Shown here piece after piece: positions 21,202-25,593 of a DNA stretch of 32,568 nucleotides. The notes under the pieces were generated by a model. That model made no database searches. It saw only the letters and a list, made by a program, of their open reading frames with translations, and was not told the DNA's origin. Source of the DNA: Clostridia bacterium (GTDB lineage Bacteria; Bacillota; Clostridia; Christensenellales; Aristaeellaceae); assembly GCA_017434085.1 (NCBI GenBank), contig JAFRFY010000006.1, positions 1-32,568 of the forward strand. The letters are read 5' to 3'. Each line of letters starts with the position of its first letter. Within the stretch, counting starts at the first letter, position 1. The translations under genes were made by a program, and so were the position numbers.

Positions 21202-21636
21202 ATGAAGCTGTCCACGCGGGGACGCTACGGCATCCACGCCATGTACGACCTGGCGGCGCACGCCGGGGACGGGCCGGTGCCGATCAAGGCGATATCGGAG
21301 CGGCAGGCGGTGCCGGAGGCGTATCTGGAGCAGCTGATGGCGGTTTTGAAGCGCGCGGGCCTGGTGCGGAGCACCCGCGGAGCCCAGGGCGGCTACGCGC
21401 TGTCCCGCCCGGCGAGCGAGATCAGCGTGGGCGAGATCCTCCGGGCGCTGGAGGGCGGCCTCAACCTGGTGGACTGCCTCACGGAGGAGGACGCCTGCGG
21501 CAAGGCGTGCGCGTGCCCGTCGCGCATCGTATACCGAAAGCTGCGGGACGGCCTGAACCGGCTGGCCGACGGCATCACGCTCCAGGATATGATCGAGGAC
21601 TATCAGCGCGAACGCGCAGGAGGCATACAGGTATGA
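21202..21636 (+). CDS. Rrf2-family transcriptional regulator (IscR-like)
   Basis: A 144-residue Rrf2-family winged-helix regulator. The start [10 protein letters not shown] is the family hallmark; the recognition helix lies around residues 36-60, followed by the R-G-A-Q-G-G-Y wing. Four cysteines, C92, C99, C103 and C105, sit where IscR-type members ligate a [2Fe-2S] cluster, so cluster sensing is likely; three are normally needed. GGAGGGAG lies upstream of the ATG. The stop codon overlaps the nifS start (ATGA), so regulator and desulfurase are co-translated. Placement ahead of nifS and nifU supports control of Fe-S cluster assembly; CymR-like control of cysteine metabolism is the alternative. 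Confidence 0.93.
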
Positions 21637-22811
21637 AGGTATACATGGACAACGGCGCCACCACCCGGGTCACCGAGCCGGTCATGGCGGCGATGCAGCC
21701 CTATTTCTGCGAAATCTTCGGAAACCCGTCGTCGTTCCACACGGCGGGGCGGGAGTCCCGCCGGGCGGTGGAGGCGGCCCGCGCCCAGGTGGCGAAGGCC
21801 ATCGGCGCCGAGCCGCGGGAGATCTACTTCACCGGCTGCGGCACCGAGGCGGACAACTGGGCCATCCGCGGCACGGCCTATGCCAACGTCAAAAAGGGGA
21901 AGCACATCATCACCACCAACTTCGAGCACCACGCGGTGCTGCACACCTGCGCCCAGCTCGAGAAGGAGGGCTTCGAGGTCACCTACCTGCCGGTGGATCA
22001 GTACGGCCTGATCACCCCGGAGCAGCTGGAGGCGGCCATCCGCCCGGACACGGTGCTGGTGACCGTCATGACCGCCAACAACGAGATCGGCACCGTCGAG
22101 CCCATCCCCGAGCTGGCGGCGGTGGCGAAAAAGCACGGCGTGCTATTTCACACCGACGCGGTGCAGGCCATCGGCCACGTGAAGATCGACGTGCACGCGC
22201 AGAACATCGACATGCTGTCCATGTCCGGCCACAAGTTCCACGCCCCCAAGGGCATCGGCGCGCTGTACATCAAACAGGGCGTGCGGCTTCAACCGCTGAT
22301 GCAGGGCGGCGCGCAGGAGCGCGGCCAGCGGCCCGGCACCGAAAACCTGGCGGGCATCGTGGGTCTGGGGAAGGCCATCGAGCTGGCCACCGCCGATATC
22401 GACGCCAAGGCCGCAAAGATGCGCGCCATACGCGACCACATGATCGACCGCATCTTAAATGAGATCCCCTACGCCCGGCTCAACGGCCACCCCACGCAGC
22501 GCATGTGCGGCAACGTGAACGTGTCCTTCCAGTTCATCGAGGGCGAGGGCATGCTGATCCACCTGGACATGAAGGGCATCGCGGCCTCCTCCGGCTCCGC
22601 CTGCACCTCCGGCTCCCTGGACCCCAGCCACGTGCTGCTGGCCATCGGCCTGCCCCACGAGATCGCCCACGGCTCCCTGCGCCTGAGCCTCTGCGAGGAA
22701 AACACCATGGAGGAAGCCGACTACGTGGTGGACAGCCTGGTGGAGATCGTCGCGCGGCTGCGCGCGATGTCCCCGCTTTACGATGATTTCCTCGCTTCAC
22801 AGAAGAATTAG
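21633..22811 (+). CDS. nifS: Cysteine desulfurase (NifS/IscS family)
   Basis: A 392-residue class V aminotransferase-fold PLP enzyme that takes sulfur from L-cysteine as a protein-bound persulfide for Fe-S cluster assembly. Visible features: Y-M-D-N-G-A-T-T at the N-terminus, catalytic His100 in F-E-H-H, PLP-binding Asp175 in H-T-D-A-V-Q, Schiff-base Lys201 in S-G-H-K-F-H, and persulfide Cys324 in S-S-G-S-A-C-T-S-G, the group I long loop. The ATG at 21633 overlaps the rrf2 stop by 4 nt and follows AGGAGG by 9 nt; a longer frame that includes the rrf2 region is rejected. The stop codon lies inside the GGAATTA repeat that separates it from nifU. Confidence 0.96.
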
Positions 22812-22916
22812 GAATTAGGAGTGAGGAATTAGGAATTATAGAATGTTGCTGCCGCCGTTTCTGTTAACGTGGCAGTCGGCACTCAATTCCTAATTCCTAA
22901 TTCCTAATTCCTCACT
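22807..22916. repeat. GGAATTA-repeat inverted element between nifS and nifU
   Basis: Left arm of AATTAGGAATTAGG-type units (22807-22843) and right arm of the inverse units (22884-22916). At least 18 bp, 22821-22838 with 22898-22915, pair perfectly and could form a long hairpin around a ~45 nt centre. It has no coding capacity. Such GAATTAGGAATTAG arrays are familiar dispersed repeats in Firmicute genomes. Sitting inside an operon, it may limit read-through or adjust the nifS:nifU ratio. Confidence 0.85.
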
Positions 22917-22951
22917 CTCCATTAACAACCGACCGAAGGGAGACTATACAC

Positions 22952-23374
22952 ATGGAATACACCGAGCAGGTCATGGACCACTTCATGAACCCCCGCAACA
23001 TGGGCGAGATGGCGGACCCCAGCGGCGTGGGCACCGTGGGCAACGCCAAGTGCGGCGACATCATGCGCATCTACATCAAGGTGGAAAACGACGTCATCAC
23101 CGACGTGAAGTTCAAGACCTTCGGCTGCGGCGCGGCCATCGCCACCTCCAGCAAGGCCACCGAGATCGTCAAGGGCATGACCCTGGAGGAGGCCGAGAAG
23201 GTCACCAACAAGATGGTCATGGAGGCCCTGGGCGGGCTGCCGCCGATCAAGGTGCACTGCTCCGTGCTGGCCGAGGAGGCCCTGCACGCCGCCATACAGG
23301 ACTACCGCGAGCGCCTCGCAAAGGGCCTGCCCCCGGTGACCGAGCCGGACGACGCGGACGTGAAGTACGTATGA
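22952..23374 (+). CDS. nifU: Fe-S cluster assembly scaffold protein (NifU/IscU-like)
   Basis: A 140-residue IscU/NifU N-terminal-type scaffold, on which [2Fe-2S] clusters are built before transfer to target proteins. The three cluster cysteines are C34 (C-G-D, with the stabilizing Asp36), C59 (F-G-C-G-A-A) and C103 (V-H-C-S-V-L). The N-terminal start with N-P-R-N-M-G is typical. The zinc-type SufU insertion is not obvious, so it belongs with the NifU-like group. AGGGAG lies 9 nt before the ATG. The stop overlaps the GNAT start (ATGA). Although preceded by a 140 bp gap containing an inverted repeat, no separate promoter was seen, so it is likely served by the rrf2 promoter. Confidence 0.95.
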   Translation: MEYTEQVMDHFMNPRNMGEMADPSGVGTVGNAKCGDIMRIYIKVENDVITDVKFKTFGCGAAIATSSKATEIVKGMTLEEAEKVTNKMVMEALGGLPPIKVHCSVLAEEALHAAIQDYRERLAKGLPPVTEPDDADVKYV

Positions 23375-23820
23375 GCGACGTGTTTATCCGCCCTATGCGC
23401 CCGGAGGACTACGACGCGGTGTACGCGCTGTGGATGTCCAGCCCCAACATGGGCTTCAATAATCTGGACGATTCCCGCGAGGGCATCGGGCGCTTCCTGC
23501 GCCGCAACCCGGACACCTGCTTCGTCGCCCTCACAGACTGCGGCCTGGCAGGCGTGATCCTGGCGGGCCAGGACGGCCGCAGGGGCTACATCTACCACAT
23601 GGCCGTGGCGGAGACCTGCCGCCGACAGGGCGTCGGCACGGCCCTGCTCGACCGCTGCCTCGACGCGCTGAAAAAGGAAGGCATCCACAAGGTCGCCCTG
23701 CTGGTGTTCAAGTACAATGAAGCGGGCAACGCCTTCTGGGAAAGGCAGGGCTTCACCGTCCGCGAGGACGTCGCCTACCGCAACCGGGAATTGACAAAGC
23801 TCATACGCATCGACACCTGA
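23371..23820 (+). CDS. GNAT-family N-acetyltransferase
   Basis: A 149-residue single-domain GNAT fold enzyme, which transfers acetyl from acetyl-CoA to an amine. Acetyl-CoA binding motif A is visible as M-A-V-x-x-x-C-R-R-Q-G-V-G-T-A-L-L (about 77-93), and the C-terminal N-E-A-G-N-A-F-W-E-R-Q-G-F stretch is typical of RimI-like and small-molecule acetyltransferases. Substrate is not predictable. The ATG overlaps the nifU stop codon, without its own strong ribosome-binding site, indicating translational coupling. A longer upstream frame overlaps nifU and is rejected. Its presence between nifU and hflX is probably operon sharing rather than a role in Fe-S assembly. Confidence 0.9.
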   Translation: MSDVFIRPMRPEDYDAVYALWMSSPNMGFNNLDDSREGIGRFLRRNPDTCFVALTDCGLAGVILAGQDGRRGYIYHMAVAETCRRQGVGTALLDRCLDALKKEGIHKVALLVFKYNEAGNAFWERQGFTVREDVAYRNRELTKLIRIDT

Positions 23821-23838
23821 CAAACGGGAGGACAACAC

Positions 23839-25593
23839 ATGATTCACGGCAACCTGACCGGCATCCGCGAGAGCGTATTGAACGAGCTGGAGCGGCTATA
23901 CGACGCGGAGTTTGAGCGCGACGCCTTCCTGCCCGACCGGCTGCTCGCCATACTGGTCAGGCACACCACGGCGCTGAACCGGGAGATGCTGGTGTATCTG
24001 GGCCGGGACGGCACGGTGCTGGAGATCGCCATAGGCTCGATCGGTTCCATCGCGCTGCCGGAGCTGCACCTGCGGCGCAACCTGGACCGGCTGGCGGGCT
24101 TTCGCTGCATCCACACCCATCCGGGCGGCGGCGCGCGGCTGTCGGACGTGGATCTGCAGGCCCTTCGGCTTTTGCGGTTCGACGCCATGTGCGCCGTGGG
24201 CGTGGAGGACGGCCTCTGCACCGGCATCAGCGCGGCCTTCCTGGGCGAGGTGGAGTACGACAACCTCTCCGTGGTCGTCAAAGGCCCGGTGAAGCCCGGC
24301 CGCATCCCCCAGAGCCTGTGGATGAAGGAGATCGAGCTGGCGGAGGAGCGGGTCAAGAAGGCTATCGAGAAGGGCGGCATCGTGGAGGAGGCCGAGAAGG
24401 TCATGCTGATCTCCACCGACTCCGATGAATCGCTGGACGAGCTGGCCTCGCTGGCCGAGACCGCCGGGGCGATGGTCATCACAAGGGTGCTTCAAAACCG
24501 CTTGAAGCCGGACCCCGCCACCTACATCGGTTCCGGCAAGGCGGAGGAGCTCTCTCTTGCGTGCCAGACGCTGGAGATCGACCTGGCCATACTGGACGAC
24601 GAGCTGACCGGCGCGCAACAGCGCAACCTGGAAAACGCCCTGGGGGTGCGGGTGATCGACCGCACCGCGCTGATACTGGATATATTCGCCCAGCGGGCCC
24701 AGTCCGCCGAGGGCAAGCTGCAGGTGGAGCTTGCGCAGATGAAGTACCGCCTGCCCCGGCTTCAGGGCATGGGCACGGTGCTCTCGCGGCTGGGCGGCGG
24801 CATCGGCACCCGCGGCCCCGGCGAGACGCGGCTGGAGGTGGACCGCCGCCGCATCCGCCGCAGGATCGACGATCTGGAGGGCCAGCTTAAGGAGATCAAG
24901 AAGCAGCGCGACCTGCGCCGCGCCCGTCGGGAAAAGACCGGCCAGAACACCGTGGCGCTGGTGGGCTACACCAACGCGGGCAAGTCCACGCTGTTGAACG
25001 CCCTCTCGGGCTCGGACGTGTACGTGGAGGACAAGCTGTTCGCCACGCTGGACCCCGTGATGCGCAAGGTCGCCCTGCCCGAGAACCGGGAGTGCCTGGT
25101 GGTGGACACCGTGGGCTTCATCCGCAAGCTGCCCCACCAGCTGGTGCAGGCGTTCCGCTCCACGCTGGAGGAGGCGCTGTACGCCGACCTGCTGGTGGTG
25201 GTCTCGGACCTCTCCAGCCCCCACTACGCCCCGCAGCGCGCCACGGTGTTCGAGGTGTTGAACGACCTGGGCGCCGCCGACCGGCCCATACTCGAGGCGC
25301 TGAACAAGACCGACGCGGCCCATATCACCGGCATGGTGGAGCCCGCCGACGCCATACTGATCTCCGCCAAAAACGGCGAAGGCCTGGACGCCCTCAAGGC
25401 CGAGATCAGCCGTCGCATCGCCGCGCTGCGCCACCGCGCCGAGCTCACCGTGCCCTACGCGAAGGGCAATGTGCTCTCCCTGATCCACGAAAGGGGCCAG
25501 GTGCTCTCCGAGGAGTACGCCGCCGAGGGCACCCGCGTCACCTGCCTGCTGGACACCGCGCTGTACCGGAAGGTGATGGGGATGTTGAAGTGA
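23839..25593 (+). CDS. hflX: Ribosome-associated GTPase HflX with N-terminal JAMM/RadC-like domain
   Basis: A 584-residue HflX, about 150-170 residues longer than typical. The C-terminal part is canonical: the HflX domain with G-G-G-I-G-T-R-G-P-G-E-T near 319-330, an R/K-rich coiled coil, then the GTPase with G1 G-Y-T-N-A-G-K-S-T (376-384), G3 D-T-V-G-F (423-427), G4 N-K-T-D (489-492) and G5 S-A-K (509-511). HflX binds and splits stalled or dormant ribosomes after stress. Residues 1-160 carry a JAMM-type motif, H92-T-H94-P then seven residues to S102 and two to D105, with candidate Glu49 in N-R-E-M-L-V-Y-L. This is the metal-binding pattern of MPN+ and RadC-like domains (family knowledge). 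GGGAGG lies 7 nt before the ATG; last gene of the rrf2 operon. Confidence 0.94.
   Translation: MIHGNLTGIRESVLNELERLYDAEFERDAFLPDRLLAILVRHTTALNREMLVYLGRDGTVLEIAIGSIGSIALPELHLRRNLDRLAGFRCIHTHPGGGARLSDVDLQALRLLRFDAMCAVGVEDGLCTGISAAFLGEVEYDNLSVVVKGPVKPGRIPQSLWMKEIELAEERVKKAIEKGGIVEEAEKVMLISTDSDESLDELASLAETAGAMVITRVLQNRLKPDPATYIGSGKAEELSLACQTLEIDLAILDDELTGAQQRNLENALGVRVIDRTALILDIFAQRAQSAEGKLQVELAQMKYRLPRLQGMGTVLSRLGGGIGTRGPGETRLEVDRRRIRRRIDDLEGQLKEIKKQRDLRRARREKTGQNTVALVGYTNAGKSTLLNALSGSDVYVEDKLFATLDPVMRKVALPENRECLVVDTVGFIRKLPHQLVQAFRSTLEEALYADLLVVVSDLSSPHYAPQRATVFEVLNDLGAADRPILEALNKTDAAHITGMVEPADAILISAKNGEGLDALKAEISRRIAALRHRAELTVPYAKGNVLSLIHERGQVLSEEYAAEGTRVTCLLDTALYRKVMGMLK

Follow-up and report, generated by a model that had tools for sequence, protein, structure and literature searches.

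A probable JAMM/MPN-type metalloenzyme domain, supported by sequence and predicted fold, at the N-terminus of the ribosome-splitting GTPase HflX of a Clostridia bacterium

What would a metalloprotease-like domain do at the front of a GTPase that splits ribosomes? The question is raised by a stretch of 32,568 nucleotides from a Clostridia bacterium of the Aristaeellaceae (assembly GCA_017434085.1, contig JAFRFY010000006.1), which is called the window here at its full length. Its hflX gene (23839..25593, forward strand) opens with ATG, follows a GGAGG that is read from the sequence as the likely ribosome-binding site (23827..23831), and encodes 584 amino acids (aa), in which a JAMM-like N-terminal domain precedes a complete HflX GTPase. 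JAMM enzymes are chiefly known for removing ubiquitin, as proteases of the proteasome and the signalosome. In the window protein, residues 1-160 (23839..24318) are probably a genuine JAMM/MPN+ metalloenzyme domain, most likely a zinc-dependent hydrolase of peptide or isopeptide bonds that HflX would deliver to the ribosome. The presence of a JAMM-type domain within a ribosome-splitting GTPase is confirmed in the sequence, and its interpretation as a metalloenzyme is supported by sequence and predicted fold together. If true, a complete JAMM signature in such a GTPase would tie peptide cutting directly to ribosome rescue. Searches of the open-access papers of PubMed Central found no description of a JAMM/JAB domain on HflX. 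Other fusions of the prokaryotic JAB domain are described in a survey from 2006 (PMC1779556).

The N-terminal domain reads E49-x42-H92-T93-H94-x7-S102-x2-D105, which is an exact match to the JAMM motif as published, EXnHS/THX7SXXD (PMC300881). Of the 271 stop-to-stop frames in the window that are 60 aa or longer, one contains HxHx7SxxD. A background control used 20 neighbourhoods of 12 kb, all picked for carrying the domain; there, H[ST]Hx7SxxD is present in 20 of 20 HflX frames and absent from all 556 other frames with 100 aa or more. The motif of the window HflX is beyond chance, and the original prediction, which had recognized the pattern from the letters alone, was right on this point. 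The H92-T93-H94 block (24112..24120) lies at the end of a predicted strand (residues 88-95), with the predicted zinc ligands H92 and H94 encoded at 24112-24114 and 24118-24120. The predicted third ligand, D105 (24151..24153), stands in a predicted helix (residues 103-112). By analogy with AfJAMM, E49 (23983..23985) is the predicted acid-base catalyst and S102 (24142..24144) the predicted stabilizer of the reaction intermediate (PMC300881).

The remainder of the protein, residues 187-584 (24397..25590), is an ordinary HflX. The HflX model TIGR03156 scores 457 bits over residues 194-526 (cut-off 217), and PF13167, PF16360, PF01926 and PF19275, which cover the N-terminal, middle, GTPase and C-terminal regions, all exceed their Pfam cut-offs within residues 197-565, as is expected of an HflX GTPase. 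All of these matches are C-terminal of the domain, so the claim that residues 1-160 precede a complete HflX holds, while those residues themselves give nothing above the Pfam or NCBIfam cut-offs. The full-length model is less confident than that of the domain (pLDDT 79, pTM 0.56), and its HflX part matches structures bound to the 50S subunit (best 8a57, Foldseek E 2.2e-38), among them HflX from Listeria and Mycobacterium, human GTPBP6 and others. Unlike the window protein, the chains listed among these matches of HflX, HflXr and GTPBP6 have 267-468 residues, too short for HflX plus the domain. A linking helix (residues 158-178) and a short linker, with pLDDT below 50 at residues 181-183, connect the two parts in the model (24310..24396). 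Because the domain is tied to HflX proper in this way, it should lie near the face of HflX that meets the ribosomal interface.

The N-terminal domain alone is predicted with high confidence (pLDDT 90.5, pTM 0.88), and the model has an MPN fold that resembles the JAMM/MPN proteins Pyrococcus JAMM1, RadC and Rpn11. A fold unlike MPN domains had been named as the result that would overturn the JAMM assignment; the predicted one is MPN/JAMM-like, in favor of that assignment. A deaminase reading was rejected, since a deaminase chain stands far lower in the fold ranking (9k3e, E 0.18) and the motif is of the JAMM type. In profile searches against solved structures, the family-wide profile matched AMSH-like proteases (E 5e-5), with Prp8 chains, which we take to be MPN-like, among the matches of the wider profile. 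A first profile, from the smallest alignment described below, had found 13 JAMM chains at E 0.04-0.94. Chloroplast S19, which ranked over the JAMM chains with the first profile (E 0.016 and 0.026) and recurred with the wider one (0.026-0.04), was taken as chance, as were one other unrelated chain of the wider profile (E 0.83), a phmmer hit of the window domain in the Protein Data Bank (3irs, E 0.025), and a match of one copy without the site (L226) to the release-factor model bVLRF1 (E 0.069). Against the Pfam family Prok-JAB (PF14464, cut-off 25 bits), the window domain reaches 12.9 bits (E 0.1), and the best of 46 members of the broadest alignment, scanned singly, reaches 20.8 bits. In its exact catalytic motif, fold and match to AMSH-like proteases, the domain is thus like the JAMM/MPN+ metalloproteases AfJAMM, PfJAMM1, Rpn11, Csn5 and AMSH; unlike them, it is a predicted enzyme and is fused to a ribosome-splitting GTPase.

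Conservation was read from four alignments, A1 (23 rows), A2 (61 rows, the window and 60 others), A3 (the window and 44 others) and A4 (57 rows, all chosen with an intact motif). None of the five motif residues varies in A1, A2 or A4, the last of which extends to sequences with 24% identity to the window. The invariant columns of A4, a result conditioned on the choice of its rows, are E49, G66, H92, T93, H94, S102 and D105, and no others. The source loci of A2 and A3 (78 of 80 named loci, L114 and L117 being dropped) were fetched by a pattern with RC[IL]HTHP, so H92 and H94 are not independent there, but E49 and S102 lie outside that pattern and their invariance is independent of it. The original proposal of E49 as the JAMM glutamate was right. 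A1 was drawn from 46 of 50 loci; L022, which has an internal stop codon, and L031 were dropped for lacking the start motif, and L033 and L049 for want of a frame. The motif is present in 46 of these 46, a count biased by the exclusion of L031. Variation of H92, H94 or D105 among close orthologues had been named as the second result that would overturn the JAMM assignment; these residues are conserved there, with one exception in the window's own family: L031 (genome G044) has lost E49, H92 and H94 together (to G, R and R) and has kept S102 and D105.

A wider comparison showed that the site has been lost more than once. The HflX frame was found in 170 of 179 loci, and looser patterns recovered eight of the nine others, the ninth being L142, whose frame seems to leave its contig. 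After exclusion of 25 named rows (23 near relatives within L002-L026, L139 as the window again, and L169 as cut) and of rows with identical ends, 147 HflX proteins were compared. Among them, 24 are without the domain, these coming from the 30 best-scoring HflX loci, 109 have all five residues, and 14 have the domain without the site; the motif is therefore complete in 109 of 123 domain-bearing proteins. Each of the 14 lacks two or more of the five residues, with a histidine among those missing every time in this alignment, and no protein among the 123 lacks exactly one. In the tree of the HflX part, the 14 represent four separate losses, forced by well-supported branches. The presence or absence of the whole domain takes five changes on the same tree, of which two are forced, and the domain may therefore have been transferred or gained repeatedly. 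The losses of the site are undercounted: a degenerate domain in a 616-aa HflX frame (L319:1838-2300, genome G617), recognized by eye, has no Pfam match and escaped the profile search.

What computation establishes is the domain with its motif and predicted fold, its relatedness and conservation, and the repeated losses. Metal binding and hydrolysis are what family knowledge leads us to infer: H92, H94 and D105 would hold a metal, E49 would activate water, and S102 would steady the reaction intermediate. In AfJAMM, the residues equivalent to E49 and S102 bind no metal (PMC300881). Outside the 14 proteins without the site, these two are as constant as the ligands, which favors catalysis over mere metal binding.

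The alternative that survives best, although unlikely, is that of a metal-sensing or structural zinc site, which would bind zinc without cutting and would aid the docking of HflX on the ribosome or sense the metal status. A purely structural site needs neither E49 nor S102, so their invariance in the 23 rows of A1 and the 61 rows of A2 counts against it. The copies without the site weigh on the other side: R56, G58, L85 and D115 are present in all 14 of them, and a domain kept without its site implies a role that needs neither metal nor catalysis. Some copies also keep E (eight), S (seven) or D (six) without both histidines, mostly in one lineage (L226-L231), which counts against a strict all-or-nothing loss. 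A non-catalytic role must hold for 14 of the 123 proteins, and besides its site the domain has a catalysis-independent role, probably a structural one or one in contact with the ribosome. The structural pocket that had been offered as the alternative in the original prediction is weakened by the constancy of E49 and S102.

The same losses would suit a pseudo-enzyme scaffold, in which the site has gone out of use. Both eIF3 and the proteasome contain such MPN-minus subunits. That four independent lineages have kept the domain and lost the site speaks for such a scaffold, and the degenerate copy of L319 adds a further case. A site out of use should, however, decay residue by residue, and the lack of any single-residue loss among the 123 proteins, together with the retention of all five residues at deep divergence in the window's lineage and most others, makes a scaffold very improbable for the window protein.

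The relation to RadC has to be weighed as well, and we know of no settled function for RadC. The window domain gives no match to the Pfam RadC family (PF04002, cut-off 22.1 bits) at E ≤10. Among 57 relatives, eight match RadC at E ≤0.01, and the N-terminal domain of one HflX (L188:54-533, genome G405) clears the Pfam cut-off alone, with 33.4 bits; this copy is a bridge between the window-type domain and the RadC family. For our RadC profile, 30 RadC loci were fetched, and the 13 with an H[NDS]HP[SN] block recognized by the script were used. The RadC rows read HNHP and mostly PS, in contrast to HTHP and mostly LS in the HflX rows, and a separate radC gene is present in 58 of 60 genomes with a domain-bearing HflX. 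A RadC-like module that works on nucleic acid such as rRNA or tRNA, or on a partner bound to nucleic acid, has the slimmest chance of all, for although no member has a stronger Pfam match than that of L188 to RadC, RadC (2qlc) is third in the fold ranking and its function is termed unknown in a passage of PMC300881, the profile search of solved structures prefers AMSH-type proteases to RadC (E 5e-5 vs 0.27), and the JAMM members with tested activity, Csn5 and Rpn11, cleave isopeptide bonds (PMC300881).

If the domain is a hydrolase, the fusion itself suggests that it acts at the ribosome, to which HflX would carry it. HflX splits stalled ribosomes; its ND1 subdomain touches helix 69 of the 23S rRNA, and the peptidyl transferase center is reached by a loop from the helical domain (PMC12493154). 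Because HflX would deliver the domain there, the substrate would most likely be a polypeptide accessible at or close to the subunit interface of ribosomes that have stalled or are being split, with the nascent chain, its poly-alanine tail and a ribosomal protein tail as candidates. A ribosomal substrate is what delivery by HflX points to; a nascent chain as the substrate is speculation.

To our knowledge, the HflX of Bacillus subtilis has no JAMM-like domain. That species is the subject, as its abstract shows, of a study published in 2021 on ribosome-associated quality control (RQC) in bacteria, where the factors that split the stalled ribosome and release the tagged polypeptide are described as unclear (PMC8373112). 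If true, a splitting factor with its own peptidase would make this question testable by point mutants. In the fullest form of the idea, HflX of these bacteria would both rescue and cut, without a partner: while splitting a stalled ribosome, it would use the JAMM domain to cleave the nascent chain, stalled or tailed with poly-alanine, or the tail of a ribosomal protein, and would thereby provide the release step that is missing from RQC; we regard this form as quite doubtful. In the same study, HflX was non-essential for RQC and the double deletion of hflX and ssrA gave no synthetic growth defect, which speaks against a general link between cutting and rescue (PMC8373112).

An extra segment before HflX has a precedent in the N-terminal extension (NTE) of the mycobacterial protein, which also lies at the large-subunit interface. 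It contacts uL16 and helix 38 and extends to the H69-H71 region, but is merely 39-58 residues long, unlike the domain described here (PMC12493154). This 2025 review also reports HflX with an N-terminal extension in several Clostridium and Paenibacilli species, and its passage on them neither specifies what these extensions are nor names a JAMM domain (PMC12493154).

In many Bacillota families, the domain has long been part of HflX. It is present in 73 of 100 genomes of relatives, in 118 of 393 genomes of the class (120 matches minus G100 and G310, whose sole match is a short frame of ~240 aa taken to be RadC), and in 71 of 398 genomes of a phylum sample (77 matches minus six short RadC-like frames), each count including the window's own genome. 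In the phylum sample, 196 genomes have HflX; profile search found the domain in 47 of these and not in the other 149, one of which (G617) has the degenerate copy. The original view of residues 1-160 as lying outside the usual HflX architecture needs one correction: the fusion is common in the window's group. At every locus inspected, the domain is located on the HflX frame, a few frames being short; that of L318 ends with its contig.

The scan of a species-genome collection gave 471 loci with the conserved pattern and an encoded relative, of which 80 were retained. Their titles name Clostridia, Bacillota or taxa taken as such, mainly from rumen and gut metagenome assemblies. An intact copy with HTHPGGNPHLSSVD is present in HflX of Fusobacterium animalis (WP_016339937.1), which places the domain outside Bacillota as well. 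In an F. animalis record labelled as a 219-kb plasmid, hflX carries an intact JAMM motif (L321:3001-4803), and the two records with the domain in the plasmid collection are both from Fusobacterium. The phage records gave no match to the domain. Two divergent copies weakly match phage tail and repair proteins in PHROGs (E 0.027 or worse), which fits a JAB domain and proves nothing on mobile spread.

The gene neighborhood offers little on the substrate. In the window, nifS-like, nifU-like and GNAT acetyltransferase genes (21633-23817) immediately precede hflX and share its strand, and none of the four annotated neighbor genes belongs to a ubiquitin-like system. A gene for a NifS-type cysteine desulfurase is upstream in seven of 26 analyzed loci, which remained from 31 after five, including the window, were dropped for lack of an HflX frame detected by the script. 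Each of the seven is either a named locus of the species-genome scan or a member of the window's family. Among the other neighbors are what we take to be a YigZ/IMPACT-like protein in five loci and an aminotransferase-like protein in five, with others in at most four. Since neighbors differ outside the seven desulfurase loci, a fixed gene partner as a clue to the substrate was rejected, and gene context does not discriminate among the nascent chain, the poly-alanine tail and a ribosomal protein tail.

A different enlargement of HflX was observed in one family (f155; L281, L284, L286 and L291), in which the HflX frames have 740-830 aa and are without the JAMM domain. The frame of L281 ends in a C-terminal tRNA-dihydrouridine synthase domain (PF01207, E 2.2e-98), and that of L291 is similar by eye.
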